A stretch of DNA of 64,000 nucleotides from an uncultured Spartobacteria bacterium (GCA_903901425.1 CAIURC010000088.1:1-64000), one strand, 5' to 3'. Shown: positions 1,478 to 24,651, counted from the stretch's first letter. The notes: generated by a model from the sequence alone, not told the origin. Numbers and translations are program-made.

Positions 1478-3244
1478 TCAGGGGGTGGGGCGTCCGTAGA
1501 CCTCAGTTTCTTTGGATCTGCCCACCAGGCGGTACTGTTGCTTCAGGGAATCGTAGACCGGTGCGGCCCAGTGGCTGAACCGGGAAGCCTCGTGGGCGTT
1601 GATGGCCCGGTTGTCGATCACTATCGCCGCGGCACGCCGGCTCTCGATTTCTCTGGCCTTCTGTTCCATCCACGGTTTTCCGTGGGTGACATTGTCGACG
1701 TACAGGTCCCGCTCATAAGTCGGGCGGTTGGTCATGAGGTTGTACCCGGGCTGGTACGGGTAACAAACCACCGGTTCCCCGGCGGTGCTGCAGGCCATGA
1801 TTGCGTCTCGGACCGCCGTGAGATGCTCCAGTTCTTTCTTGGACACCAGAACTGAGACGCCGTTCTCGCCCCGGAACCAGTGTTTCCGGCCGGCTCTGGC
1901 AATGATGGTGCCGGCAGAGGGGTGATCCAGCGCCACACAGGCGTACAGGGAGCCGTGCGCGATGCAGACCAGGCCCAGAGCCCATGCCGCAATGCCGTGC
2001 CGGCCTTCCCGTGCCCGGAACACGTATGCAAGGCCGCAAATGATTAGCACCAGATGGCTCACCATGAATTCCGACAGATGCGGGCGGTCTGGCCTGAAAA
2101 AGAAAAACTGGGGGAAAGTAGCCAGTGACGCGATTGCCACGATCCCCAGCTGGGTGCTGGGGTGAGCGGTTGTCCATTCCTGTCGTCTCCATGCACCAAC
2201 CCCCCCGAGAAGCGCCATTCCCAGCCAGGCCGTGAACCCGGCTAGCGGCAGATAAGTGAGCACGAAAAGAAACCGCGCATCCCAATTCCTGCCGCGCCAA
2301 AGTTCCACGATGCTGGCGCGCGCGCGCAGTCCGGATGCTCCCTTTTCTTCCGCCGGGCCGGAGGGAGCGGTGGCGAGATCGGTCTGGCCTGATACCGGCT
2401 TGGAATTGGCGACTGAGCCCGTATGAGACCGCAGTGCGCGCGCACTTTCGAGAAGATATCGGCCCCAGCTGGCATACTGTTCAACGAACTCCCGTTCATA
2501 GCCGCGCGCTCTGGCGTGCCCGGAGGCCGGGAGATGCACGGCCCAGACGGTGCCGCTCAGGAGCAGGATCCCCGCAACCAAGCGGCCGAGTTTGCTTCCC
2601 GCCCCGAGGCGAATGTCGGCCAGTTGCACCACCAGCATCCCGAGCCAGACTGCGGAGAACAAAAATCCAAGATCGATCCGGATCAGGAAGCTGAGGCCGA
2701 GCACTAGACCCCCGAGAAGGCAGTCCCCGTAAAACTGGCTGCCGCGCCAATCACTGCCCCGAAAGCCAGCCTGAAGATCCAGCCGTCCAAAGGTCCGGAT
2801 CAGGCAGAGTAGGTTCAGCATGCCCAGCAAGGGGATGTAGTTTTTGAACTGGGACCCCGGAAACACCACGAGGAGCAATCCGGCAAAAAAACCGAGCCAG
2901 GACCGACCGGTAACCCTTTTGACGACAGCCCATCCGCCGAGAGCGGTGCCGGCGGACAGGGCGAAGAAAAAGGCCCGCATTTTGACGTAGTGAACGCCGG
3001 TCAGCTTGAAAAGCCAGACAATCGGATAGAACCAGAGGATGTTGTAGCCGAGGGCCACATCCCGGATGGGCACCTCACCCGCAAGGAGGCGTTGCGCCGT
3101 CAGCGCGGCTGTGCCGCCCTCGTCATGAGTGTTGAACCAGTAATTGAGGTAGGAGCCCCAGTAGAAAACGCCCGCCAGCAGGATCAGCCACGGCTGCAGT
3201 CCCTCCAGCAGCCCAAGCACCCCGCGCTGACGATTTTCTTGCAT
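1478..3244 (-). CDS. Multi-pass membrane protein, GT-C glycosyltransferase-like
   Basis: The start at 3244 (MQENRQRG) is chosen because a strong GGGAGGAG ribosome site lies just upstream, although the frame is open for another 61 codons. The 588-aa protein has about ten hydrophobic segments. A first outer loop reads NTHDEGGTAAL shortly after the first membrane segment, which resembles the acidic loop of GT-C enzymes of the ArnT/PMT type that use polyprenyl-phosphate sugars. The C-terminal about 150 residues are soluble and likely periplasmic. Together with rmlA this suggests a role in glycosylating lipids, polymers or proteins, but donor and acceptor cannot be read. It could also be a polymer-assembly protein without enzyme activity. 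Confidence 0.7.
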   Translation of the reverse strand: MQENRQRGVLGLLEGLQPWLILLAGVFYWGSYLNYWFNTHDEGGTAALTAQRLLAGEVPIRDVALGYNILWFYPIVWLFKLTGVHYVKMRAFFFALSAGTALGGWAVVKRVTGRSWLGFFAGLLLVVFPGSQFKNYIPLLGMLNLLCLIRTFGRLDLQAGFRGSDWRGSQFYGDCLLGGLVLGLSFLIRIDLGFLFSAVWLGMLVVQLADIRLGAGSKLGRLVAGILLLSGTVWAVHLPASGHARARGYEREFVEQYASWGRYLLESARALRSHTGSVANSKPVSGQTDLATAPSGPAEEKGASGLRARASIVELWRGRNWDARFLFVLTYLPLAGFTAWLGMALLGGVGAWRRQEWTTAHPSTQLGIVAIASLATFPQFFFFRPDRPHLSEFMVSHLVLIICGLAYVFRAREGRHGIAAWALGLVCIAHGSLYACVALDHPSAGTIIARAGRKHWFRGENGVSVLVSKKELEHLTAVRDAIMACSTAGEPVVCYPYQPGYNLMTNRPTYERDLYVDNVTHGKPWMEQKAREIESRRAAAIVIDNRAINAHEASRFSHWAAPVYDSLKQQYRLVGRSKETEVYGRPTP

Positions 3245-3414
3245 GAAACTCCTCCCGATAGCCCGTCTGCAACCCGCCCGCAATCCCAAAGCCAGCTGTT
3301 TCCAGCTCGCCGGGGGCCGCCCCGGGTCCGGCTTCCGGGTGAACGAAGGGGCCCGGGGTGCAGCCGCGCAAATCGCGCTTTGCGCCCAGGGCGCGCCGGG
3401 CCAATATCCGGCGC

Positions 3415-3873
3415 ATGCAGGAAACACCCTTCATCCAGACAGAGGTTCAGGTGATGTTTTTCGACACGGACTGCGCGGCGGTGGTGCACAACATCGCCTA
3501 TCTCCGGTTTATTGAGGTGGCGCGGACGCTTCTCGCGGAGCAGCTGGGCCTTGGCCTGGTCGGGATGGCCCAATCCCAGCTGTTTCCCGTCGTGGTCCGG
3601 ACTGAAATTGATTACCTCCGCCCTGCGCGCCTGGGGGACCGGCTCGAGGTGCACGGCTGGCTGGATTCGATTGAGCGCAGCCGGTTCTGGTGCCGGTTTG
3701 AGGTCCGGCGCCCGTCGGACCAGACGCTCGTGGTCGCCTCCCGCCAGATGCTGGCTCTGGTTCAGATGCCGCAGGGCAAACCGGTCCGGCTCCCGGCGGA
3801 TTGGGGGGGGCGGTTTGGCCATCTCCGGGCAGAAATCCCCGGCAGAACCGCAGCGGGGCCGGATACACATTAA
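3415..3873 (+). CDS. Acyl-CoA thioesterase of the YbgC/4HBT hot-dog family
   Basis: This is a 152-aa single hot-dog domain. The segment MFFDTDCAAVVHNIAYLRF near the N terminus is the 4-hydroxybenzoyl-CoA thioesterase signature: the Asp of DTD and the H-N-x-x-Y pattern match the YbgC catalytic region (usually DTDxxGVVYHxNYLxF). Family members hydrolyse acyl-CoA thioesters in the cytosol. The ATG at 3415 was preferred to a GTG at 3358, because the extra 19 residues are basic and not family-like. It diverges from the membrane protein at 1478-3244 and precedes the mla genes by about 60 bp, so it may share their transcript. Confidence 0.85.
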   Translation: MQETPFIQTEVQVMFFDTDCAAVVHNIAYLRFIEVARTLLAEQLGLGLVGMAQSQLFPVVVRTEIDYLRPARLGDRLEVHGWLDSIERSRFWCRFEVRRPSDQTLVVASRQMLALVQMPQGKPVRLPADWGGRFGHLRAEIPGRTAAGPDTH

Positions 3874-7866: not shown

Positions 7867-9414
7867 ATGCCCGACATCGTCCTCGCCACCCTCAACGCCC
7901 GGTACATTCATGCGTCCTTTGGACTCCGGTACCTGATGGCGAATCTGGGCGAACTCCAGTCCCGGGCGTGCATCGAGGAGTTTGTGGTGCAGCAGGCGCC
8001 CTTGGAGATCGTGGAAACCCTTCTCGCCCGGGAGCCAAAGATCGTCGGGTTCGGCGTTTACATCTGGAACGTGACCCAGACCGTGGAGGTGGTGGCGCTT
8101 CTGAAACGGATCCGGCCCGGGCTGGTTGTCATCGTGGGCGGTCCGGAGGTTTCCCACGAAACCGAGGGGCAACCCATTGTGGCGCTGGCTGACCATGTCA
8201 TCACCGGCGAGGCGGATCTCAAATTCGCCGAGGTCTGCCGGACCCTGCTCGGCACGGGGGATTCAGCCAGTTCCCCGGTTCAGCCGCCGGGCCTGCCCAA
8301 GATCCTGGCGGCTGAACTGCCCAAACTCGACCAGGTCGTCACCCCGTACGACTTGTACACGGACGAGGATCTGCGAAGCCGTGTGCTGTATGTCGAGGCG
8401 TCGCGCGGGTGCCCTTTCACCTGCGAGTTCTGTCTCTCCTCGCTCGACATCCCGGTGCGGGCTTTCGCCCTGGAGCCGTTTTTGGACGGGATGCGGCGCC
8501 TGCTCGACCGCGGGGCTCGGCAGTTCAAGTTTGTCGACCGCACCTTCAACCTGCATCTCCCCACCAGCAAGGCCATCCTCCAGTTCTTCCTCGACCACTG
8601 GCGCGACGGCATGTTCCTCCATTTCGAGATGGTTCCCGACCGCCTCCCGGAACCTCTCCGCGCCTTGGTCCGGCAGTTCCCTGCTGGAGCCGTGCAGTTT
8701 GAGGTGGGGATCCAGACCCTCGACGATCTCACATCCAAGAACATCAGCCGCCGGCAGAACCTCGAACGATTGGCCGATAATTTCCGGTTTCTCCGGGAAG
8801 AAACCGGTGTCCACATCCATGCGGACCTGATTGTGGGGTTGCCGGGCGAAACCCTCGCCAGCTTCGGAGCCGGATTCGACCGGGTCCTGCAACTCGGCCC
8901 GCAGGAAATTCAGGTGGGCATCCTCAAACGCCTGAGGGGTACCCCCATCGCCCGGCATGACGCCGAATACCAGATGGTCTATTCCCCGCAGCCGCCCTAC
9001 GAAATCCTGGCCAACCGAGACATCCCGTTTCCCGACATGCAACGGATGCGCCGGTTCGCCCGGTACTGGGATCTGGTGGCCAACAACGGCCAGTTTCCCA
9101 CCACGCTTGCCCTGCTCTGGCAGGAGGCCGGTTCTCCGTTTGACGTGTTCCTCCGGTTCAGCGACTGGCTCCATGCCCGCCTGGGACGCACCCACCAAAT
9201 TGCTCTCCACACCTTGGCGCGTTCCCTGTTCGACTTTCTGACCACTGAACAACACGTCCCACCCGATCAGGCACGGACCTCCCTCCTAACCGACTGGAAC
9301 CGCGCCCCGGGCCGGGAAGCGCTCCGACTGGACGCCGCCTCCTCCGAGGCCGGGGAGGTGCTCCAACCGTCCCGAAGACAGGCGCGCCATGCCGGAGCCG
9401 CAGGCCGCTCTTGA
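7867..9414 (+). CDS. Radical SAM protein with N-terminal cobalamin-binding-type domain
   Basis: This 515-aa protein begins with a B12-binding-like Rossmann domain (about residues 1-140, with [10 protein letters not shown] and [12 protein letters not shown]). A radical SAM domain follows, whose cluster motif C182-x3-C186-x2-C189 is visible in GCPFTCEFC. The downstream [11 protein letters not shown] and [10 protein letters not shown] segments are typical of the anaerobic magnesium-protoporphyrin cyclase-like/YgiQ-like 'DUF4080' type proteins. A C-terminal extra region (about 380-500) matches such members. The reaction is unknown; members methylate or rearrange unactivated carbons. The cobalamin domain lacks an obvious DxHxxG, so cobalamin binding may be lost. 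A hairpin terminator follows. Confidence 0.85.
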
Positions 9415-9466
9415 AAAAGCGTGGCAGTGCCAGACAACTGGGGCATTTCCTTACCGTTTCCTCACA

Positions 9467-9492
9467 AAACGCCCGGCGTCTCCCGGGCGTTT
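9467..9492 (+). terminator. Hairpin terminator after the radical SAM gene
   Basis: A perfect 10-bp inverted repeat (AAACGCCCGG / CCGGGCGTTT) with a 6-nt loop lies 52 bp past the stop of the radical SAM gene and ends in TTT. It separates that gene from the peroxidase gene starting at 9522. Confidence 0.65.
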
Positions 9493-9521
9493 CCAGACAA
9501 ACCCCCGCCATCTTCAGACGG

Positions 9522-10901
9522 ATGTCTCGTTCTTCCCTCCCCAAAATCCTGTTCTGCCTCTGCGCCGTCCTCCCGGCTTACGCCGAGCTCCCCTTTGGCA
9601 CGGAAGTCCGGATCGAGCGTCCAGATGCACAGGGGACTGCGCGGCTGGAACTCCGGAATCCCGGGAACCACACCTGGGTGATCCAAGGGTCCAACGATCT
9701 CTCCGGATGGACCACCGTGGAGACGCTGAAAGTCCACAACGGGTTCCTGAGCCGGACCCTGTCTGCACCCGGGTCGACTGCCGCGCGCACCTATTACCGG
9801 TTCCTTTTTGATCCCGCGGCCCAGAACCTCACCAGCACTCTGTCCGGCGGGCTGCGTCTGCCCGAACTCCCCGCCAACTACGCCAACCCAACGCTTCCCC
9901 CAGGATTCTCGCAGCCCCCGATTTCAGGGCAGGACAACACCCCTGTCGCCAACCCGGTCACGGACGCGGCTGCGACGCTCGGGAGGGTGCTGTTTTTCGA
10001 CAAACGGCTTTCGCGGAACCAGACCGTCTCGTGTTCCTCCTGCCACCGGCCCCAGAACGGGTTTTCAGATCCGGCCCAGTTCAGCGTGGGATTCGAAGGC
10101 GGCCTCACGGACCGCAACTCGATGGGGTTAACCAATGCCCGGTGGTACCAGCGTCGTGCATTCTTTTGGGACGAACGGGCTGCAACCTTGGAAGACCAAG
10201 TCCTGCAGCCGATCCAGAACGCGGTGGAAATGGGGATGACGCTCCCGGACCTCGTGACCCGCCTGTCTGCGGAGCCCTATTACGGCCCTCTTTTCACCCA
10301 GGCCTTTGGTTCCGCCACCGTTTCCTCCGACAGGATCTCCCGGGCCCTCGCCCAGTTCGTGCGTTCCATAATTGCCACCCAGAGCAAGTTCGATTTGGGC
10401 CGCGCCGCCAACCCCCAGTTTTCCAACTTCACCGCCGAAGAAAATCTCGGCCGCACCATCTTCACCACACCCACCCTCGGGAATTGCTCAGCCTGTCACG
10501 GCTCAGACAACTTTGTTCCCGGTCCAAATGTGAACAACAACGGCCTTGAGAACCCGTATGTGGACAAGGGCCGGGGCGAGGTGACCGGCCTTGCGGCGGA
10601 CGAGGGGTTGTTCAAGGTGCCTTCGCTTCGGAACATCGAACTGACGGCGCCTTACATGCACGACGGCCGGTTTGCCACCCTTGAGCAAGTGGTGGAGTTC
10701 TACAATTCCGGCGTGGTCAATCACCCCAACCTCTCGCCGCCCCTCCGAAACCCGCCCGGGACCCCAAATGCCGGACAGCCCCGGCGCCTGAACCTGACTC
10801 AGGAACAGAAGGCCGCCCTTGTGGCATTCCTCAAAACCCTCACGGACAGGGCCATCACCACCGATGCCCGGTTTCAGGATCCATTCAACTACGGGAATTA
10901 G
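9522..10901 (+). CDS. Secreted di-heme cytochrome c peroxidase (CcpA/MauG family)
   Basis: The 460-aa protein starts with a signal peptide (MSRSSLPKILFCLCAVLPAYA). Residues about 22-105 form a small beta-rich domain with the SNDLSGWTTVETL pattern seen in many secreted verrucomicrobial proteins. The catalytic part has two c-type heme sites, C171-S-S-C-H175 and C322-S-A-C-H326, plus the PYMHDGRFATLEQVVEFY segment typical of bacterial di-heme peroxidases. It would reduce hydrogen peroxide with electrons from a periplasmic donor, or act on another substrate as MauG relatives do. It stands alone between a terminator and a convergent gene; the start at 9522 is preferred because it begins the signal peptide. 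Confidence 0.92.
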   Translation: MSRSSLPKILFCLCAVLPAYAELPFGTEVRIERPDAQGTARLELRNPGNHTWVIQGSNDLSGWTTVETLKVHNGFLSRTLSAPGSTAARTYYRFLFDPAAQNLTSTLSGGLRLPELPANYANPTLPPGFSQPPISGQDNTPVANPVTDAAATLGRVLFFDKRLSRNQTVSCSSCHRPQNGFSDPAQFSVGFEGGLTDRNSMGLTNARWYQRRAFFWDERAATLEDQVLQPIQNAVEMGMTLPDLVTRLSAEPYYGPLFTQAFGSATVSSDRISRALAQFVRSIIATQSKFDLGRAANPQFSNFTAEENLGRTIFTTPTLGNCSACHGSDNFVPGPNVNNNGLENPYVDKGRGEVTGLAADEGLFKVPSLRNIELTAPYMHDGRFATLEQVVEFYNSGVVNHPNLSPPLRNPPGTPNAGQPRRLNLTQEQKAALVAFLKTLTDRAITTDARFQDPFNYGN

Positions 10902-13508: not shown

Positions 13509-14220
13509 AGGGAACAAAATTGGATAAAACTCTGAACCCGGCCTGATGCCTCCCACTTAGGCGTAAACTCAATGGAGTGATTGGAATCCGCACTTTTTCG
13601 GCCGGTACACCGGGGCAGGGAGGGGGTGAACTGCAGCCTCTGCATTTTTTGGGGCCGGACCGGCGCCGCGGATCCATACCGCCCGAAACGGCTCCTAGAA
13701 GAGCCTCTCCCCGGCTGGCGTTGAAAGGGGGCCTGCTTCCCTCAACAGGGCGAAATTTCCTGGGCCCATTTCTGTGCCACGAGCCCGTCACCCTTTCCGT
13801 TAAAATGCACTTGAGGCGGAAGCCCCACTTTCTCGAGGGGAGGGGTGAGGCGGGGCATCCAACCAGGCCGCGGAAAAGTTGCGTGGGCATGCAATCGGCC
13901 CCTCTGGCACCGGTGTCGTGTTGTCAAAATTCGGGCGTTGCCGGACCGGAGGATGGTTCGGAATGTCGTTTTCCAACCCGGATCACTGACCGAGCGTGGA
14001 CCTCCACCAACCGCATGGAGAGGCGCCCGGCGTGTCGCTTAATTTTCCTGTGGTGTTCTTGGCGGAGGCCTTGAGTGGCCACACCGCCCGCACCACGGAA
14101 TGGCACTGGACACCATTCAGTATTTCATGATGAATGAAGGCACACGCGGGCTTAGAAAACTGAGCGATATTCAAAGCGCCCACGACGCCGGACGGTCTTT
14201 CTCCCTCCCTCATTAAGTCT
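13509..14220. other. Gene-poor intergenic stretch before the accessory block
   Basis: About 700 bp without a convincing gene. Open frames on both strands are short, overlap one another and give low-complexity proteins rich in Arg, Pro and Gly. The region should contain the divergent promoters of the beta-helix gene and of the barrel-protein gene at 14221. No repeat, tRNA or IS end was recognised. Confidence 0.5.
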
Positions 14221-14718
14221 ATGACAATCACTACCATGCAAAATTTCCTCACAGGAACTCTGTTGCTCGCCACGTGTGCTCTATCCAGCACTGCAGCGGC
14301 CGAAGATTTGAAGATCTATGCAAACATTGTCACGCATGTGGATGCCCACAACGACGCAAAGGATTTCGGCGTGGGGCATCGACGGATTCGCGAGAATGAA
14401 ATCCGGCTTTCTGAGGACGGGAAGGTCGTTGGTAAGTCCTACTCGATCTCTTCCGTGGTGGATGTGAACCACAAGGAAGGTACAGGCTCACGGGTTGCTC
14501 TGGGTGTGACGGAACTTCCCAAGGGCACCATATGGACTGAGGCCAAGGCGGCCAACATGCCTCACAAGGCCACCATCCAGCTGGGCCACCAACATGCTGG
14601 CATCATCCTCGGTGGAACCCGAGATTACGAGGGGGTGAAGGGCACCTACGATTTTGAGGTCCGCAAGGACGGGAAACATGTGGTAACCGTTTTCCACATC
14701 GTGCGGGAAAAAAAATAA
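14221..14718 (+). CDS. Secreted allene-oxide-cyclase-like (dirigent-type) barrel protein
   Basis: This 165-aa protein has an N-terminal signal peptide ending near STAAAED, so it is exported. The mature part is all-beta and carries the GGTRDYEGVKGTYDFEV segment, which matches the GGTGxYxGAxG strand-turn motif of the allene oxide cyclase/dirigent barrel superfamily. Plant members cyclise or guide reactive small molecules; the function of bacterial members is mostly unknown. ATG codons at 14221 and 14236 are both possible. It precedes the FAAL-P450 operon by 196 bp on the same strand, with a hairpin in between, so it may be functionally linked but is probably transcribed separately. Confidence 0.7.
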   Translation: MTITTMQNFLTGTLLLATCALSSTAAAEDLKIYANIVTHVDAHNDAKDFGVGHRRIRENEIRLSEDGKVVGKSYSISSVVDVNHKEGTGSRVALGVTELPKGTIWTEAKAANMPHKATIQLGHQHAGIILGGTRDYEGVKGTYDFEVRKDGKHVVTVFHIVREKK

Positions 14719-14741
14719 AGAGGCCGTGCGGCCAGCCTCTT
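14718..14741 (+). terminator. Hairpin after the barrel-protein gene
   Basis: AAGAGGC and GCCTCTT form a 7-bp stem directly at the stop codon of the barrel-protein gene, with a nested GGCC/GGCC pair in the loop. There is no U tract, so it may be partial or factor-dependent. Confidence 0.45.
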
Positions 14742-14914
14742 GAGGCGACAAGGGGCGAATCAAGGTTCGTTGTATCGTTTTGGATGGGGGGCTCCCCCTC
14801 CGAAATCTGTTAAGGGTTTGGTTTGTGGTATTTGGCCAAAACAGCGCTTGAGTGCCACCGTGGAACACCTGCAATTGACTGTTCAACACACATGTGGGGT
14901 GAATTTCCGCCGGC

Positions 14915-17900
14915 ATGGAATCTTCTCATATGCGTCCCTTCTCCCTTTCGCCCTTCTGTCTTTTTAGCGAGATCCTTCCTGCGCATGCCTTGGTAAAGCC
15001 AAATGCAAAGGCCTATACATTTCTGAAAGATGACACGCAGGCGGTTTCCATTTCCTATCTTGAACTTGAGTTGGCTGCGTCCCGGATCGCCACAGAATTG
15101 CTCAGGAGGAGGAACGGAAATGGGAGTGTTCTTTTACTTTTTCCACCGGGGCTTGATTTCATAAAGGCATTTGTCGCCTGTGCACTGGCAGGCTCCCCCT
15201 CTGTTCCGCTCAGCGTCCCGAGGGCAAGGCAGTCCCTTTCTGGGTTGGAAAACATTGCCAGGGATTGCGGCGCCAACGTGGTCCTCTGCACCCAAGCAAT
15301 TTCCGGGACTGTGAAAAGCCGGATTCCTGAGGGCTCATTTCTCAATCAGCTGCAATGGATCGATGTCAGCGAGCTCGATTATTCTGAGTACAAACCCTTC
15401 AGGGCTTCTCCTTCCCACCCTTCCGCCCCTGTTTTTCTACAATACACATCAGGCTCAACGGGCCGCCCAAAAGGCGTGGAGGTCTCCAATCAGAACCTCC
15501 TGCACAACCTCCGCAATATTGCCTCAATCTTCAACTTTACAGAAGGTGCCAAAACGGTTTCATGGCTCCCTCATTTCCACGACATGGGTCTTGTGGGCTC
15601 GATTTTAACCAGCCTCTACGCGGGAGTCCCATGCATTCTACTCTCCCCAAACGACTTCATTCAGAAGCCCTATCGTTGGCTCAAAGCGATCAGCGAGTAC
15701 GGAGGAACACTCGCGGGAGCACCGAACTTCGCTTACGACCTGTGTGTTTCTAAAATCCCTGAGGAGGAGATCGGGACCATTGATCTTGGGAGTTGGAGGG
15801 TTGCCTGGAACGGAGCAGAAACGATCCGCGCCTCGACCCTCTCGGCATTCGCACAACGCTTCCGCAAAGTGGGCTTCAGCGAGAAGGCTTTCGCTCCCTG
15901 CTACGGATTGGCGGAAGCAACCTTGATGGTCACTGGGTGCGGACCACACAGCGAAAACAGCATCATTAGCATTACGCGTTCAAGTCACCTGAGCGGCGAA
16001 TCGGTAGAAGTGGTTGCAATGCCCTCCTCAGAAACTAACGAACTCGTAGGATGCGGAAAAAGTTTCCCAGATCAAAGTGTGCGAATCGCGCATGCCAACT
16101 CGTTGATTTCACTTCCCGATCGGCAGGTCGGTGAGATTATGGTGAAGGGGCCCAGCATTTCCAAAGGCTATTGGAACAACAAAGAGACATCCGCACCCGT
16201 TTTTGACCACATCCTGGACGGCGAAACAGGATTTCTTCGAACCGGGGATTTGGGTTTTCTCCACGAAGGGGAGCTTTTCGTGGTAGGCCGGGTCAAGGAG
16301 ACGATGAAGCTCAATGGAAAAACCTTCTACCCTTATGACATCGAGTTTACAGCGTTTGAGTCGAGCCCATGCCTGAAAAAGAATGGTGCCGCTGCATTCT
16401 CGATCCAAGGAGACGACGGTGAGTTGCTTGTAGTGGTATGTGAAATCCGGAGAGACCGCCTGAAAGTCTTTGATGGGGAAGCAATTCGCAAGGCGGTTGC
16501 GAAGGCGCTGTTCGATGAGCATAATGTACCTGTCCACGACTTTGTTCTCATCGGGCCAGCCCTGATGCCAACCACCTCCAGCGGCAAGATCAAGCGGATC
16601 GAATGCCGCCAGCTCTATTTGCAAAAGTCGCTGGAAACCCTTTACAGCTCCCGGTCCCTGCTTATGAAGCAAAACTCAAACCCTGCCGCCTTGACCCATC
16701 AGGCCCTTGTGGATCTGCCCCCTTCTCTCCGCCTGAAGAGTCTTCTTGCCAACCTCAAACTTGAGGCGGCTTCGTTGGCCGCATGCGACCCACTCATGAT
16801 TGATGCCTCGCAGAATCTCCACCACGACATCGGTCTTGATTCCATCCGTTTGATCGAATTGAAGGTCCACCTCGATCTTTTGCTGGGAAACGAGTTTCCG
16901 CTTGAGAAGTTTGCGGCTGTGGAAACCCTCGGAGATCTGGCGAGGGAGTCTATCGGATATCTAAACCTCGAGAGAACGCCATCGACGGTTTTGCAGGAAA
17001 TCTGCCCTGGGCCGTCCTATCCGCAGGATTTGGTTGTCCTTGAGAAGATGCAAAATGGCTTTTTCGACTACCTTCTGCAACTCCGGGAGGAATATGGCAG
17101 GGTCGTCCGATTTGTGTGGGGTTCAAAGACGTTTTACATGCTCAGCGAACCGGAGGATGTGAGGGAGATCTTCGTCAAAAGGACGGACGAGTTCATCCGC
17201 GGCGATGTCTTTATTGGGATCCGTTTGACATCGGACCTTCAAAACCTCTTCTCCACGGAAGGCGCGGAGTGGAAGGTGCAGCGCGATATTGCGCAACCAC
17301 TCTTTACCCGCGCTGCGATCGAACCCTTCTGTGATTCGATTCCGAGGCGCGTCCTCGATTGCCTTTATGATGAGCACGGGCGAAAAGTAACCAGGGAAGT
17401 GGATCTCGCGAATGCCACGAAGGAAATTACTCTGCACATTATACTTGGAAAGCTGCTTAGTATAACGGATCGCAATCGATCCCAACGGATTCTCGAAAGC
17501 CTGATCGATGTCGACAACTTTCCGGTTCCTTACTTTTACATTTTTCCGCACGAAATCCAAAATGCGCCGCTCTATAATGAGAAGCGGCGGCTATCTTTTG
17601 ATCCGCTCGTCTATGAGCATATTGATCAGCATCTCGACCATCCGGATCAATACCAGGACATTCTCGCCTCATATGTGGCAACCGACTTTGTGAAGGCCAT
17701 GCCAAGAGCGGAGCAGCGTGTTTACCTGAGAAGTATGGTGTTTACGCTCATTCTGGCGGGGGTGGAATCAACCGGTAGCGGACTTTTTTCGATTCTTTTT
17801 CTTCTGGCTACCCATCAGGAAAAGCTCCGAAAAGTCCGGGAGGAGGTTCTTTCGGTCTTCCCAGATTCCCAGTGCAATTCGCAGGATCTTCTCTCGAAGC

Positions 17901-18322
17901 TTCCATATACCTATGCAGCAGTGAACGAGGCCCTCCGTCTCTATCCCCCGGTTTGGTTCAATGGTCGGGAGGCCACCTTGGACACGACCTTCCGCGGAAT
18001 CCCCATCCGGAAAGGTGATTTTATGCTCACCTCGCCTTACGTGATCCAACGGAATCCCAAATATTGGGAAAATCCCTCCGATTTTATTCCTGAACGGTTC
18101 CTCGAAAAAAATGTCCCCATGGGTGCTTATGTTCCCTGGGGCTCGGGGCCAAGGCTCTGTGCCGGAAAGTGGCTTGCGCTTTTTGAACTCATCCTTGCAA
18201 CGGCGACCATTGTGAAGGACTACGAGCTCACTGTAATGCAGGAGGGCGAATTCTCACTCGGCACATTCTTCACATTGAGACCGAAAAACACTTTCCGGGC
18301 CACACTTACGCCACTTTCATAA
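14915..18322 (+). CDS. FAAL - acyl carrier protein - cytochrome P450 three-domain fusion
   Basis: The 1135-aa protein has three domains. Residues about 5-575 form a fatty-acyl-AMP ligase: YTSGSTGRPKG (177-187), CYGLAEATLMV, the FAAL-type CGKSFPDQSVRI segment, RTGDLGF (near 442-448) and NGKTFYPYDIE. Residues about 600-690 are a carrier domain with the phosphopantetheine site GLDS (Ser643). Residues about 700-1135 are a cytochrome P450 with I-helix AGVEST (948-953), ExxR at 1005-1008 and the heme loop WGSGPRLCAG (Cys1082; Trp replaces the usual Phe). It should adenylate a fatty acid, load it on its own carrier and oxidise it there. The start may be 14915 or 14930. The stop overlaps the next start by one base. 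GC is clearly lower than in flanking genes. Confidence 0.93.
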   Translation: MESSHMRPFSLSPFCLFSEILPAHALVKPNAKAYTFLKDDTQAVSISYLELELAASRIATELLRRRNGNGSVLLLFPPGLDFIKAFVACALAGSPSVPLSVPRARQSLSGLENIARDCGANVVLCTQAISGTVKSRIPEGSFLNQLQWIDVSELDYSEYKPFRASPSHPSAPVFLQYTSGSTGRPKGVEVSNQNLLHNLRNIASIFNFTEGAKTVSWLPHFHDMGLVGSILTSLYAGVPCILLSPNDFIQKPYRWLKAISEYGGTLAGAPNFAYDLCVSKIPEEEIGTIDLGSWRVAWNGAETIRASTLSAFAQRFRKVGFSEKAFAPCYGLAEATLMVTGCGPHSENSIISITRSSHLSGESVEVVAMPSSETNELVGCGKSFPDQSVRIAHANSLISLPDRQVGEIMVKGPSISKGYWNNKETSAPVFDHILDGETGFLRTGDLGFLHEGELFVVGRVKETMKLNGKTFYPYDIEFTAFESSPCLKKNGAAAFSIQGDDGELLVVVCEIRRDRLKVFDGEAIRKAVAKALFDEHNVPVHDFVLIGPALMPTTSSGKIKRIECRQLYLQKSLETLYSSRSLLMKQNSNPAALTHQALVDLPPSLRLKSLLANLKLEAASLAACDPLMIDASQNLHHDIGLDSIRLIELKVHLDLLLGNEFPLEKFAAVETLGDLARESIGYLNLERTPSTVLQEICPGPSYPQDLVVLEKMQNGFFDYLLQLREEYGRVVRFVWGSKTFYMLSEPEDVREIFVKRTDEFIRGDVFIGIRLTSDLQNLFSTEGAEWKVQRDIAQPLFTRAAIEPFCDSIPRRVLDCLYDEHGRKVTREVDLANATKEITLHIILGKLLSITDRNRSQRILESLIDVDNFPVPYFYIFPHEIQNAPLYNEKRRLSFDPLVYEHIDQHLDHPDQYQDILASYVATDFVKAMPRAEQRVYLRSMVFTLILAGVESTGSGLFSILFLLATHQEKLRKVREEVLSVFPDSQCNSQDLLSKLPYTYAAVNEALRLYPPVWFNGREATLDTTFRGIPIRKGDFMLTSPYVIQRNPKYWENPSDFIPERFLEKNVPMGAYVPWGSGPRLCAGKWLALFELILATATIVKDYELTVMQEGEFSLGTFFTLRPKNTFRATLTPLS

Positions 18323-19311
18323 TGCCCAACGGCCTGCCATCAGAAAGCTCAGACGAGGCCCATCTCTGTAGACTGGGCGCACTCCCTGACCGGTTAATTT
18401 TCATTCTTGGCCCCCACAGGTCGGGAACCACATACCTCCATCAGGCGCTTGTTGATACAACAGCTTTTGACTACATTTCTTATTATGACGCGGTCGAAAG
18501 CGACCGATTGATTGTCAACCATGAAGCCGGGCGCAGGGAAGCTGTGATCCGAGCGCTTGCGGAGGAAATGGAGAGCTTTGGCCCAACCCGGGGCATCGAC
18601 CACATGCCAATCAACCCCCTCCACGCAGAGGAATACGGTTTTCTCCTGGAGAAGCGCTATCATACCCTTCAACAGGCCGCGGACATTTCGAATACCAACT
18701 TCGAACCTTTGAAAATTCTCTGCCGTAAAAAGCGATTCCTGTCCCGTGAGCCGAAGCCTTTGATATTGAAAAACCCGATAGATTTCTATGATGGGTTCAT
18801 CCGGATTGCCGAAACATTTGAAGGCTGCCAGTTTATCTTCATCCACAGGCATCCCTTGAGTGTCTTTAACTCGCACATCCTGCTTTGGAGAAAGCTGATC
18901 CAGAGTAAAAACTGTTTTCTGGCCAAGATCGATCGTTCATACGATGCGGTTTTCGATTCGCCCCAGACGCTCCAGGCCATCCATCTTTCGACCCTCAGCC
19001 CGCGGGGGTTGCAATTGGCTTTTGAAAAGTTCTGCAACGCATACGAGTTTTATATTAGCCACATCCATAAGCTAGCTTCTGAGCGTATGGTGAGTATTCG
19101 CTACGAGGATCTGTGCAAAACCCCGGCGGATGTGTTGCGGCGGATCATTGACAAGCTGGCGTTGCCTGTCGCTGAGGAAAACCTCAACGCCCGACCAGCG
19201 CCCCGAAAGATCGCAATCCTGCCTGAGGTCGAGCGCGTCTACCGGGCCAATGCGAACCGCATCGAGCCGTATTTGAGTCACATGGGCTTCGGCCTTATGC
19301 CCCATGATTAA
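18322..19311 (+). CDS. PAPS-dependent sulfotransferase
   Basis: The 329-aa protein contains the two PAPS-binding elements of sulfotransferases: the 5'-phosphosulfate loop GPHRSGTTYLH (residues 30-40) and the 3'-phosphate element IHRHPLSVFNS, in which Arg176 and Ser184 have the canonical 8-residue spacing. It would transfer sulfate from PAPS to a hydroxyl group. Its ATG shares a base with the TAA of the FAAL-ACP-P450 gene and its end overlaps the reductase start by 8 bp, so the three proteins are made together. The acceptor is therefore probably the hydroxylated lipid or the alcohol released by the reductase. No PAPS synthesis genes are visible in the window. Confidence 0.92.
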   Translation: MPNGLPSESSDEAHLCRLGALPDRLIFILGPHRSGTTYLHQALVDTTAFDYISYYDAVESDRLIVNHEAGRREAVIRALAEEMESFGPTRGIDHMPINPLHAEEYGFLLEKRYHTLQQAADISNTNFEPLKILCRKKRFLSREPKPLILKNPIDFYDGFIRIAETFEGCQFIFIHRHPLSVFNSHILLWRKLIQSKNCFLAKIDRSYDAVFDSPQTLQAIHLSTLSPRGLQLAFEKFCNAYEFYISHIHKLASERMVSIRYEDLCKTPADVLRRIIDKLALPVAEENLNARPAPRKIAILPEVERVYRANANRIEPYLSHMGFGLMPHD

Positions 19312-20422
19312 CGCCAAGCACCTCACCGTTGCCTCCTCCGGAGTAAGAAATATCTTGTTAACCGGGGGCAGCGGTTTTGTGGGGGTGCATCTTTTGGCAA
19401 GCATTTTGAACCACACGGATTCGAGGGTCCTTTGCCTGATGCTCGGCGGTTCAACGTCTGAGGCGTCTCAGCGGCTCGCCAGCGGCCTTGAGAGGCACCA
19501 GCTCGTGATTGACTGGAGCAGGGTCGAAATCCTACTGGGAGACCTGTCGAAACCCCGACTGGGACTGGAGGACAGTCACTACAGGGAACTTCAGCAGTCG
19601 CTCGACTTGATCATCCATGCAGCCGCCGATGTTTCGCTCTTCAGCAAATACGAACAACTGAAAGAGGTGAATGTCGACGGCGTGGGCCAGATGTTGGAAA
19701 TGGCAAACGGAACAAGGCGCATCCCGTTCACCCATATCTCCTCCTACTCTGTCTTTAACGAGGTTTCGTATCGTCAAGAACAGGTGGTCTTCGAGGAGCC
19801 CCTCCCGGTCAGGGAGCCTGTATTCCGGAACGGATATGCGGAATCAAAATGGAGGGCTGAGCGTATTTGCAATGAAGCCAATGCCTCTGGCGCTCCCGTC
19901 AAGATACTCCGCCTGCCCTATATCCTCGGAGCAGCATCCTCCGGAACATGCAACCCGCAGGGATATATAGAGCTGATCTCGAAGGCAATGCTTCTTGTTT
20001 CCGTGGCGCCGGACTTGGATTTTAATCTGACTTCCCTGCCAGTCGACATCTGCGCCGATCTCGTCGTCCAGGTTGCACTGGGGACTCCAGCGCAATCGGG
20101 AATTTTTCATCTCACACCCTTCGCGCCATTTCACTGGTCTGCAATCTGCGAAGCGGCGAGCAATTATGTTCACGAATTGGAGCTTCTGCCTGCCCTCGAA
20201 TGGTACCAACACATCAAGAAATGCGCCTTGACCCATCGCGAGCTTTTTCCGGTCGTGGCTCTTCTGGCAAAAGATCCAGCATTGACGCAATTCCAGTCGA
20301 ATATCCATCGGCTGCGCTTTGATATCAGTAAACTGACCGACTGCCTTGGTGAATCCCCTGCGTTTCCTGAAAATCGTTCAGCCTATTTGAGGCGCTACAT
20401 TCAATGTGTCGGAAAAATTTGA
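19304..20422 (+). CDS. Stand-alone thioester reductase (R-domain, extended SDR)
   Basis: The 372-aa protein matches the terminal reductase domains of NRPS, Lys2 and carboxylic acid reductases. It has the NADP-binding loop TGGSGFVG (Gly21/24/27), the GDLSKPRLGL segment, the HISS catalytic Ser at 146-147 and Tyr178-x3-Lys182 in GYAESKW. Such domains release a carrier-bound acyl chain as aldehyde and often reduce it further to alcohol. Being free-standing, it would have to dock on the ACP of the upstream fusion. It overlaps the sulfotransferase gene by 8 bp. The C-terminal part (about 270-370) is less conserved and may recognise the chain or the carrier. Confidence 0.9.
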   Translation: MINAKHLTVASSGVRNILLTGGSGFVGVHLLASILNHTDSRVLCLMLGGSTSEASQRLASGLERHQLVIDWSRVEILLGDLSKPRLGLEDSHYRELQQSLDLIIHAAADVSLFSKYEQLKEVNVDGVGQMLEMANGTRRIPFTHISSYSVFNEVSYRQEQVVFEEPLPVREPVFRNGYAESKWRAERICNEANASGAPVKILRLPYILGAASSGTCNPQGYIELISKAMLLVSVAPDLDFNLTSLPVDICADLVVQVALGTPAQSGIFHLTPFAPFHWSAICEAASNYVHELELLPALEWYQHIKKCALTHRELFPVVALLAKDPALTQFQSNIHRLRFDISKLTDCLGESPAFPENRSAYLRRYIQCVGKI

Positions 20423-20435
20423 AGCCTTGATCACT

Positions 20436-21584
20436 TCAGTCGGCACTGTAAATCGCATCGACCAAGTCGGTGCAACGTTTCCGGGGAAGAACTCCTGCCT
20501 CCCAATTATTCATCAGATAGGCAAACCCGGTCCTTCTTTCTGGATCGGCAAACCCAAGGCTGCCACCCAGGCCGATATGGCCGAAAGCGGATCCGGAGGC
20601 CCCAAATAGAGAACGGATTTTTTGACCGCTGGAATCTAGAGGGTCCATCATGAACCCGGCCGAGAACGCCATGTCGCATTGCAGGACAAGATCGAAACCC
20701 TGTGTCAACCTGGTGGACATCCAATCTAAGGTTTGTTGTTTGAAGAAAGTGGTGCCGTTCTGTACGCCGCCATTGGCAAGCAGGGCATAAAATTTTGCCA
20801 GACCCTCCGCGGAGGCGATGCCCCCAACGGAGGGGAGTGAGGAAGCCCAGATGGGTGGCGTATTCCATTCTGCAATTCCGCCTGGAAGGTTGGCGGGCCT
20901 AGTGAATGCTTTGTGGACCAGTGAGTCCGGATCGGCAAATGCGCGGGCGAAAATCAATTCACAGCCATCCAGCATGCCCCGTTCCGGAGCGCGGAGTGTG
21001 GCCACGCGATCATTTTCTGACTCTGGGAGACCGATCCACAGATCGATGCCGAGTGGCCCGCCAAAAACCCGGCGCCAATACTCCGAGAGTGCCTCGCCGC
21101 CCGTCAGACGCCGGAGTATCTCTTCCAAGGCATAAGCAAAAAGGTGGGGGCTATATGCGGATCCGGAGCGGGGGAGTGGCAGCGGGTCCTGTTTTTCAAT
21201 CGATCGGACAATGCCTTCCTTATCAAGAATCTTAAGATGGATATCGTTCGGGGCACAGAGTCCCGAGCGGTGCGAGAGCAGTTGGCCAAGCGTCATTGCG
21301 CGCTTTCCGCCCTGCGCGAATGCCGGCCAAAGGTCTGATATGTGGGAATCGAGATTCACCCCCGCCTCTTGCATCGCATGGAGCAGGCAGGCCACGACAA
21401 CGCCCTTCGTTCCGGACCCTATTCCAACAAGCGTCTCCTCTTTCCATGGCCGCTGGCAATCGGCATCGAGAAAACCCCCATAAAGCGAAATCAGCTTCTC
21501 TTCGCCCCGCAAGACACACATCCCGCTTCCTGAATCACGCCCTGCAGAAAAATTTCCTCTAAACCTTTCCTCAGCTTCCTTCAT
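20436..21584 (-). CDS. Beta-lactamase-fold serine hydrolase or transacylase
   Basis: The 382-aa protein has the class C beta-lactamase/EstB fold with no signal peptide. The nucleophile motif S57-G-T-K60 is present, Tyr144 of YSP stands in the YxN position, and FGHIGLGG late in the chain corresponds to the third (HxG/KTG) motif. Cytosolic members include esterases and the LovD-type acyltransferases that take acyl chains from carrier proteins. It faces the reductase gene with only 13 bp between the stops, and its base composition is like that of the lipid operon, so it may belong to the same acquired block. Its role in that pathway is inference only. Confidence 0.85.
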   Translation of the reverse strand: MKEAEERFRGNFSAGRDSGSGMCVLRGEEKLISLYGGFLDADCQRPWKEETLVGIGSGTKGVVVACLLHAMQEAGVNLDSHISDLWPAFAQGGKRAMTLGQLLSHRSGLCAPNDIHLKILDKEGIVRSIEKQDPLPLPRSGSAYSPHLFAYALEEILRRLTGGEALSEYWRRVFGGPLGIDLWIGLPESENDRVATLRAPERGMLDGCELIFARAFADPDSLVHKAFTRPANLPGGIAEWNTPPIWASSLPSVGGIASAEGLAKFYALLANGGVQNGTTFFKQQTLDWMSTRLTQGFDLVLQCDMAFSAGFMMDPLDSSGQKIRSLFGASGSAFGHIGLGGSLGFADPERRTGFAYLMNNWEAGVLPRKRCTDLVDAIYSAD

Positions 21585-22353: not shown

Positions 22354-23190
22354 TCAGATTAGCTTCTGCCCAACGTCGCGGACAGGGAGCCATGTTTGGT
22401 CCAGATTTTTGATCTGCATGACAAGGTCCTGAAGCGGCCAGATGGTGACCCGGGCGTGGTGGACAGACATGCGGACGACATGGCCGCCCTGTTTGCGGTG
22501 GGCGCAGAAGCCGTGGAGGTGGAGGGGAAGACCTTCGACGGAGATCATGCGCTGGAGGGTGGGGTTGGCTGCGTAGACGCCGCTCACCTCCCAGCTGCCC
22601 CCGGAGTAATCTGCAAGTTTCAGGTTGTTGGATGCGTCATAGCCGTGCGAGAGGTCGAGTCCCTCGAGAGGCAGGTAGAATGCCGCGGCAGCTGTGACGT
22701 CGATTGCGCCGGCCTCGATGTGGACACCGGCAAGGCCAATGTTTTCCGCGGCCATGCGTTCCTGAATCCATGGGTGGATGGATGCGACATCGCGGCATTC
22801 CCACACCCGGGCGTGAGCCGGGTCACAGACACCCACCGCGAGGAAGGGCATGGGCGGGGATTCGCCAACGTCAGTCAAGGACGGGGTGACAAGGGCGGTG
22901 CCAGTGGTGGGAAGCTTTTCCCGGAGAAGGTCGAGGATCTCCATGGGCTTTGCGCCTTCGGGATCGGCCCAGAGCAGGCGCGGTTCCGCGACGGTGCCGC
23001 CCACAATGGTCTCCCCGTTGCGGCGGAACCAGTTGGTGGTGCCGATGCCAACAATGGGCCAGTGGGGGGGGCACGGCGAAATATCGGCGGCGACGGAGTC
23101 CCACGTGACGGTGTGGAAGAAGTCGCCCTTGAGCATGCGCTCGACAGTGTTGTAGCACAGGAGGGCGGAGCGGTTTGGAGAAAGGCGCAT
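22354..23190 (-). CDS. Acetolactate-decarboxylase-like (BudA family) protein
   Basis: The 278-aa protein shows the metal site of alpha-acetolactate decarboxylase: H224-L-H226 and H237 in HLHGFCAHRKQGGH, with the same 2- and 13-residue spacing as His194/196/207 in the Bacillus enzyme, followed by the AxVxI strand. The N-terminal half keeps a two-domain layout with a DVTAAAAFYLPL strand. BudA makes acetoin from acetolactate, but overall similarity looks weak, and relatives of this fold occur in siderophore-like or antibiotic clusters. The start at 23190 (MRLSPNRS) is preferred to 23229. It diverges from the transporter at 23353. Confidence 0.6.
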   Translation of the reverse strand: MRLSPNRSALLCYNTVERMLKGDFFHTVTWDSVAADISPCPPHWPIVGIGTTNWFRRNGETIVGGTVAEPRLLWADPEGAKPMEILDLLREKLPTTGTALVTPSLTDVGESPPMPFLAVGVCDPAHARVWECRDVASIHPWIQERMAAENIGLAGVHIEAGAIDVTAAAAFYLPLEGLDLSHGYDASNNLKLADYSGGSWEVSGVYAANPTLQRMISVEGLPLHLHGFCAHRKQGGHVVRMSVHHARVTIWPLQDLVMQIKNLDQTWLPVRDVGQKLI

Positions 23191-23352
23191 TGGGCAAACA
23201 AGACGGATGACAGCGGAGCCGGCAAGCAAATGTCAGTGCGGCATGCCTGTGGCCTTCGTCCTTCCCTTTTCCATCGGCCGGGGCTTAATCAGGCGCATTT
23301 TTCCCGGCCCGCATCACAGCCCCATGACCTCCGTCCAAGGACTTTCACCGCT

Positions 23353-24651
23353 TTGAAAACGACCGCCACCCCGGAGCAATCCCGGAAAGCCCCTGTGGTC
23401 CGGCCCGTAGTGATCATGGCGGGCATGGCTGGGAACACCATGGAATGGTTCGATTTCGGGTTGTACGGGGTTCTCGCGCCAACCCTGGGAAAGCTTTTCT
23501 TTCCCGAGGGAAACCAGCTCGTGTCGATCCTCGCCGTGTTCGGGGTTTTTGCGGCGGGTTATTTGATGCGGATGGCGGGTGGGGCGATTTTCGGGCACAT
23601 CGCGGATCATCAGGGAAGACGGCGGGTGCTGCTGCTCTCCGCGGGACTCATGGCGGTGACGACCGCGCTGTGCGGCATGCTGCCGGTGTATGCCAGCATT
23701 GGGATTGCGGCCCCGATTCTTTTCACGATCCTGCGTCTGCTGCAGGGGTTGTCGGTGGGGGGTGAATTCATCACGTCACTGATTTACCTGCTTGAAAATG
23801 CGCCGCCGCACAGGCGGGCACTTTTTGGAAGTCTAGCGGGATCTTCTGCGACCGTGGGGCTTCTGATGGGCTCCGGGTTTGGGGTGGCGCTCTTCACGGT
23901 TTTCACAAACGAGCAGGTGCTGCAGTGGGCCTGGAGGCTGCCGTTCCTGCTGTCCATTCCGCTCGGCCTTGCGATCGCGGTGCTGCGCACATTCCTGCCT
24001 GCCGAGGAGGCGCCGGAGCGGCACGTTGGAACCAGGGAGCGGCACTCCAGTGTCTTCCATGCCTTTTCCGAGTACCCGATGGTGATCCTGAAGACTGCGA
24101 TAGCGGGTTGGGCGACGCAGACCGGGTTTTACATCGTGGCCATTTTCATGCCGTCCTACCTTGTGAGCGGGCACCTTTTCCCGCAGTCCACCGCGCTGGC
24201 GTTTCAGGCTGCCTGCATGGGGCTGGTTGTGATCCTCAACCCGCTGGGCGGGTATCTTGCGGACAAGATCGGGCGCAAGACCATGGTGCTGGTTTCCTCG
24301 GCGGGGTGTGCGGTCGCAGCCGTGCCGCTCCTGATGATGGTCAACACGGGGGTGCACGCCTATGCGCTGTCCGCGCTGCTTGGGTTCTCGCTGATTGTCG
24401 GGCCCGGGAATGCGTGTTACTCGGTGTGGGCGGCGGAGAGGTTTCCGAGGTCGCTGCGCGCGAGTGGGCTGGGCCTCTCCTACAACATTGCGGCCGGCAT
24501 CATGGGGGGCATGACGCCCCTGATTTGCACGAGCCTGATGGCGGCCACGCACAACAGGATCGCCCCGGCCGGGTTGGTCATCCTCGCCTCGGCAATCACG
24601 ATCCTCACCAGCTTGCGCGTGAAGGAAACGGGCGACAAACCCCTCCGGTAG
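23353..24651 (+). CDS. MHS-family (ProP-like) metabolite:H+ symporter
   Basis: This 432-aa MFS transporter of the metabolite:H+ symporter family has about 12 membrane segments. GNTMEWFDFGLYGVLAPTLGK near the N terminus (in pieces) is the MHS hallmark, DHQGRRRVL and DKIGRKTMVL are the two loop 2-3/8-9 motifs, and RLLQGLSVGGEF is the conserved fourth helix. Substrates in the family include citrate, alpha-ketoglutarate, shikimate and proline/betaine; this one cannot be assigned. No in-frame ATG gives the usual N terminus, so a TTG at 23353 behind AAGGA is proposed; ATG 23416 would remove the first 21 residues. Confidence 0.88.
   Translation: MKTTATPEQSRKAPVVRPVVIMAGMAGNTMEWFDFGLYGVLAPTLGKLFFPEGNQLVSILAVFGVFAAGYLMRMAGGAIFGHIADHQGRRRVLLLSAGLMAVTTALCGMLPVYASIGIAAPILFTILRLLQGLSVGGEFITSLIYLLENAPPHRRALFGSLAGSSATVGLLMGSGFGVALFTVFTNEQVLQWAWRLPFLLSIPLGLAIAVLRTFLPAEEAPERHVGTRERHSSVFHAFSEYPMVILKTAIAGWATQTGFYIVAIFMPSYLVSGHLFPQSTALAFQAACMGLVVILNPLGGYLADKIGRKTMVLVSSAGCAVAAVPLLMMVNTGVHAYALSALLGFSLIVGPGNACYSVWAAERFPRSLRASGLGLSYNIAAGIMGGMTPLICTSLMAATHNRIAPAGLVILASAITILTSLRVKETGDKPLR

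Follow-up and report, generated by a model that had tools for sequence, protein, structure and literature searches.

A mobile FAAL-ACP-P450, sulfotransferase and thioester reductase cassette of Spartobacteria that may produce a sulfated lipid

In the olefin synthase (Ols) pathway a chain is loaded by a FAAL-ACP unit, and PKS sulfotransferases of the CurM/Ols type sulfonate the beta-hydroxyl of a carrier-bound chain; KS, AT, KR and TE define Ols (PMC3903477). In the CARs (adenylation-carrier-R), a single polypeptide adenylates a fatty acid, loads it on the carrier and releases it reductively, and R domains are known to give an aldehyde or an alcohol when they free a carrier-bound chain (PMC12783407). 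The FAAL-ACP didomains HapA and NocH, which belong to lipopeptide/polyketide clusters, pass their chain to a PKS/NRPS. P450s that act on ACP-bound fatty acyl chains are also known, for example P450BioI (PMC10741444), and FAAL, ACP and P450 occur together in one cluster on a plasmid of Gloeothece PCC 7822 (L023) and on Diaphorobacter pDCB2 (L024).

The locus compared here to these systems lies in a 64,000-nucleotide stretch of DNA (the window) from an uncultured Spartobacteria bacterium. An earlier note on this DNA had placed three frames at 14915-20422, overlapping by 1 and 8 bp, and had assigned FAAL, ACP, P450, sulfotransferase and thioester reductase domains to them; the ORFs were found at those coordinates, with 1 bp shared by the fusion and sulfotransferase (ST) frames and 8 bp by the ST and thioester reductase (TR) frames, and every domain assignment holds in profile searches. 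All active-site motifs that were checked are intact, both in the window copy and in the other copies described below. The small secreted-protein gene, the convergent hydrolase, the low-GC island and the horizontal spread, all treated below, go beyond what the note had described. The features of the locus are the following.

14155..21584, no strand: transferred low-GC island enclosing all cassette parts; limits set by GC and DNA similarity
14221..14718, plus strand: gene of a small secreted protein of 165 aa that has a hydrophobic N-terminus; a conserved neighbour
14777..14806, plus strand: stable hairpin in the interval from the small gene to the operon, kept in four copies
14915..18322, plus strand: FAAL-ACP-P450 fusion (1135 aa, ATG start)
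14948..16639, plus strand: FAAL domain of the fusion (residues 12-575)
16769..16945, plus strand: ACP domain of the fusion (phosphopantetheine serine is residue 643, codon 16841-16843)
17039..18250, plus strand: cytochrome P450 domain of the fusion (heme cysteine is residue 1082, codon 18158-18160)
18322..19311, plus strand: PAPS-type sulfotransferase, ST, PF13469 (329 aa, ATG start)
19304..20422, plus strand: free-standing thioester reductase, TR, R domain (372 aa, ATG start)
20436..21584, minus strand: convergent serine hydrolase/esterase of the beta-lactamase fold, optional member (PF00144, 2.8e-47; LipL-like)

The first protein of the trio has an AMP-binding domain at residues 24-420 (2.4e-56) followed by a DIP2-like C-terminal subdomain at 461-575, and a PP-binding domain at 619-677 that scores above the cut-off (2.7e-6). 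The motifs of the ANL fold, together with a preference for the FAAL models PRK09192 and PRK05850 (about 378 bits, below their curated cut-offs of 600 and 775) over the FACL model PRK06187 (131 bits), place the adenylating domain among the FAALs. Among solved structures it is closest to the FAAL domain from a PKS of PCC 7002 (7r7e-g, E 2e-122), presumably the olefin synthase, judging by the work on Ols in PCC 7002 (PMC3903477). The FAAL-specific insertion region aligns to 7r7g without a large gap, a comparison made with a FAAL structure only. The motifs YTSGSTG.PKG and SGKI.R of the FAAL, with the adenylation loop and the C-terminal lysine, and GLDSI of the ACP are conserved in all four complete copies of the fusion. 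The didomain thus resembles HapA and NocH in the way it would load a chain, but it is fused to a P450 and is accompanied by neither PKS nor NRPS. Searches of 388 genomes of the phylum (a sample without the other carriers) and of plasmids returned no further FAAL-ACP-P450 fusion; in those genomes FAALs stand alone, with or without an ACP, form part of long multidomain proteins, or are joined with their ACP to an alpha-oxoamine synthase-like domain. One protein of the latter kind (L044 217-3576, G591:C15), in which the FAAL-ACP is fused to an apparent PLP alpha-oxoamine synthase domain as read from its sequence, may be another loading unit placed on a tailoring enzyme, possibly in a sphingoid-like lipid route.

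The C-terminal domain of the fusion (residues 709-1112, PF00067, 2.3e-66) is a P450 monooxygenase, with the (F/W)G.GPR.C.G, ExxR, PERF and AG.(D/E)ST motifs present in 5 of 5 copies; in the last of these, which is the acid-alcohol pair of the I-helix, the alcohol residue is a Ser and the next residue a Thr. No redox partner of the P450 was found in the cassette. A reading of this domain as an allene oxide synthase, with the small secreted protein as the cyclase, was considered and dropped, as the usual monooxygenase motifs are kept and the likeness to a cyclase is below any cut-off. The clusters of Gloeothece and Diaphorobacter mentioned above, unlike the cassette, have unfused genes with the P450 upstream, and no ST or stand-alone TR is annotated in the stretches shown. 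In a family relative (L011 11322-15893, G010:C41), genes for a P450, a FAAL and an ACP-condensation-domain protein are consecutive; this is an unrelated, lipopeptide-type FAAL cluster. The term P450 was not found in a 2025 review of FAALs.

ST matches Sulfotransfer_3 (PF13469) at 4.5e-17 (63.5 bits, cut-off 27), and its GPHRSGTTYL, HRHPL.VFNS and RYEDL motifs are found in each of the five copies. Both PAPS-binding motifs, that is the 5'-phosphosulfate loop and the 3'-phosphate motif, are present, which together with the score above the cut-off identifies it as a PAPS sulfotransferase. A structural model of ST reached a pLDDT of 38, from a shallow alignment of few homologues. In profile searches of the PDB the only matches were the CurM ST (4gbm, 2e-8) and a PKS sulfotransferase (4gox, 6e-4), both over short stretches, and the choice of nearest solved structures is biased by what has been solved. 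We take 4gox to be OlsST.

The nearest solved relatives of both FAAL and ST point to Ols and CurM, with which the cassette shares FAAL-ACP loading (Ols) and a PAPS ST of the same broad kind. On this logic, which the earlier note had put forward as its alternative, the P450 would produce a beta-hydroxyacyl-ACP, ST would sulfonate it, and loss of CO2 and sulfate would yield a terminal alkene; with TR, a 3-sulfooxy aldehyde would instead give an enal. We consider such a route quite improbable, and the terminal alkene fits poorly. The cassette consists of three short proteins rather than a PKS, it includes a P450 and a TR, and of the components of an olefin synthase or CurM only FAAL, ACP and ST are present in the trio and its scanned neighbours. 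The absence of ketosynthase, AT, ketoreductase and thioesterase (KS, AT, KR and TE) means that the cassette is not an Ols pathway, and reductive release would leave no carboxylate for decarboxylation.

TR is a thioester reductase by the curated cut-off of TIGR01746 (231.5 bits against 213.35) and by its Rossmann (TGxxGxxG) and S-Y-K motifs; it also matches NAD_binding_4 at 2.9e-51, and the TG..GF.G, SSYS and GYA.SKW motifs occur in 5/5 copies. Its closest solved structure is the R domain of MxaA (4u7w, 1e-37), followed by those of CARs. Like a CAR, the cassette would adenylate a fatty acid, load a carrier and release the chain by reduction, but its R domain is separate and nearer to that of MxaA, its adenylation domain is of the FAAL type, a P450 is fused to the loading unit and an ST is added. 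It is accordingly not a single-polypeptide CAR, the R domain being a protein of its own and the NF041592 score 95 bits against a cut-off of 1300.

We propose the following pathway, in which the individual reactions, their order and the product are all predictions. The FAAL domain would make an acyl-AMP from a fatty acid and load the adjacent ACP. The fused P450 would then oxidise the tethered chain, the simplest outcome being a hydroxyacyl-ACP, and ST would transfer a sulfonate group from PAPS to the hydroxyl made by the P450, probably while the chain is still on the ACP, because its closest solved relatives act on ACP-bound hydroxyls. The separate TR, with NAD(P)H, would finally free the chain as an aldehyde or a primary alcohol, so that a sulfooxy fatty aldehyde or alcohol is the expected class of product. 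It is the relatives of ST, FAAL and TR, together with the fusion of the P450, that suggest this order of loading, oxidation, sulfonation and release. The cassette would thus be a mobile, single-module, non-elongating lipid-tailoring line, in effect a split CAR in which oxidation and sulfonation take place after loading and before release, a reading to which we give about an even chance. A sulfated long-chain alcohol or hydroxy-lipid, the product named in the earlier note, is a reasonable prediction. The host encodes the necessary inputs: a phosphopantetheinyl transferase for carrier proteins and, for PAPS, a fusion of CysN with APS kinase.

The sequence itself does not impose this order of steps, and TR could act before ST. 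The primary alcohol made by TR would then be the group that is sulfonated and the product would be the alkyl sulfate of a modified fatty alcohol, the P450 carrying out another chemistry such as epoxidation, desaturation, in-chain or terminal oxidation, or C-C cleavage like that of P450BioI, which cleaves ACP-bound chains (PMC10741444). The proximity of TR to the R domain of MxaA is in line with this, as R domains can yield alcohols (PMC12783407). We find it doubtful, albeit far from negligible: the nearest solved relatives of ST work on carrier-bound hydroxyls, and TR would have to give an alcohol rather than an aldehyde.

A search for ST in 213 genomes of the order revealed five carriers, so that the order recurs in four genomes besides that of the window. 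These are G099 (locus L013), a Terrimicrobiaceae bacterium HJW.13; G056 (L010/L014), a MAG named Chthoniobacter flavus MiE-14oct19-38; G105 (L019); and G207 (L020). The order P450, ST, TR is common to all five, the contig of L020 ending inside the P450. The overlap of 1 bp between fusion and ST is found in all four complete copies, and in the same four ST and TR overlap by 8-11 bp; in L020 ST and TR are 18 bp apart. Identities to the window proteins are 81, 80 and 60% for the complete fusions, 81, 78, 57 and 53% for ST, and 73, 65, 65 and 52% for TR. Pairwise dN/dS of the three core genes is 0.08-0.38, one comparison with saturated synonymous sites being uninformative, and each core gene is under purifying selection. 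The recurrence of gene order and overlaps across genomes and the low dN/dS make a chance origin of the trio unlikely, and the conservation of the trio supports the participation of its members in what would be one shared pathway. Among 384 genomes drawn from the class, close matches were found in the window genome and G056 only, with a single remote match (3e-9).

Two neighbours travel with the trio to different extents. The gene of the small secreted protein lies about 200 bp upstream of the operon in 4/4 copies where the region is visible, with 64-69% identity in the four carriers. Of 210 genomes of the order, five contain it, namely four carriers and the relic genome G071 described below; a Fisher test of its association with the cassette gives 3e-7 (rounded counts). 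Two of the four members match DUF3224 weakly (0.006), with no match above the cut-off, and a beta-barrel of the DUF3224 type is a possible fold; the structural model of the protein, built on a shallow alignment, reached a pLDDT of 33. The conserved hairpin that separates this gene from the operon (-17.8 to -24.9 kcal/mol in four copies, with a U-rich tail in some) is probably a terminator or attenuator belonging to the small gene, which thus need not be co-transcribed with the operon.

The convergent hydrolase is 81% identical between the window and L013, with a dN/dS of 0.13 and an intact SGTK motif in both copies. L010 retains only its 3' remnant, in L019 it is matched in part only, the contig ending there, and in L020 it was not seen beside the trio. 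In L013, the Terrimicrobiaceae copy, and only there, an asparagine synthetase-like gene (1733-3781) is found directly upstream of the cassette. These neighbours bear on a further reading, in which the trio would make a lipid intermediate that is completed elsewhere, by reaction of the aldehyde with an amine or by acyl transfer through the hydrolase, to give a larger membrane or signalling lipid. The conservation of the hydrolase in two copies and the position of the asparagine synthetase-like gene would fit; the reduction of the former in L010, the lack of a copy seen beside the trio in L020 and the restriction of the latter to one locus make this reading very unlikely in our opinion. The load-oxidise-sulfonate-release model that we prefer assigns no role to either the small secreted protein or the hydrolase.

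Several lines of evidence indicate that the cassette has been acquired by horizontal transfer, with repeated transfer and recombination. GC is 0.52-0.54 at 14-20 kb and 0.567 at 20-22 kb, against about 0.62 elsewhere in the window. DNA similarity to the carriers spans 14266-21584 (L021), 14155-20437 (L019) and 14278-20645 (L010) of the window, and the flanks are unrelated. Synonymous sites of rpoC are saturated when the window genome is compared with G056 or G099 (pS 0.79 and 0.76), whereas the small gene and the trio of these two closest copies diverge by 0.48-0.59; likewise, G056 and G099 are saturated in rpoC (0.75) and differ at 0.28-0.37 in the small gene and the trio. Conversely, rpoC of G099 and G105 is 97% identical, yet their fusions are only 63% identical. 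L019 is a mosaic, of which the P450 and residues 1-240 of ST resemble L020 (G207), while the remainder of ST and TR resemble L010 and L013. In G071 (L064 9445-10304, G071:C18) the small gene is followed, after 10 bp, by residues 301-372 of TR within a local dip in GC; the alignment to the window starts at 14156 and ends at 20439. This locus is thus a relic of the cassette that lost the fusion, ST and most of TR through an internal deletion.

The scanned neighbours of the trio mostly belong to sugar metabolism and transport or encode MauG and radical SAM proteins; none could be recognised as a PKS, NRPS, thioesterase or other biosynthetic gene. A B12-binding radical SAM protein (DUF4080) at 7867-9414 overlaps by 4 bp a MauG-type di-heme peroxidase frame at 9411-10901, whose start was set at the first TTG and is uncertain. 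On the other side, a weakly acetolactate decarboxylase-like gene (22357-23229, minus strand) lies on the opposite strand across the initial third of a long open frame (22396-24651, plus strand), in which the real gene is an MFS transporter with a later start, matching from about residue 338. Flanking synteny with a same-genus genome, G002, is limited to the gene at 22375-23233; sharing of this gene argues that the window contig belongs to its genome. Contamination as the source of the segment was considered and is unlikely, given this right-hand flank gene and the 80-kb contig.

The cassette is real and under selection, and it moves horizontally; the chemistry proposed for it is plausible. In open-access papers we found no described pathway with its gene set, and none that combines sulfotransferase, fatty acyl-AMP ligase, thioester reductase and P450, so that the earlier statement that no pathway with exactly these genes has been described stands within that literature. 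The FAAL products listed in the 2025 review include none from Verrucomicrobiota. We tentatively suggest, as a possibility and with little confidence, that the locus stands for an undescribed class of bacterial sulfated lipids, made from ordinary fatty acids without elongation by a mobile line of three proteins, in which the P450 contained in the loading enzyme would oxidise the tethered chain, sulfonated before reductive release, and served by the secreted protein as carrier, receptor or processing partner. If this is true, very few steps would lead from an unmodified fatty acid to a lipid that is both sulfated and reduced; the trio is compact enough to be expressed as a whole. The unusual FAAL-ACP-P450 fusion and the shortness of the route would be useful for surfactant-like molecules and for the handling of carrier-bound chains by P450s. 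The repeated transfer, mosaicism and loss of the cassette suggest a product with a niche-dependent benefit in Verrucomicrobiota, which may be a signal, a defence or a surface lipid.
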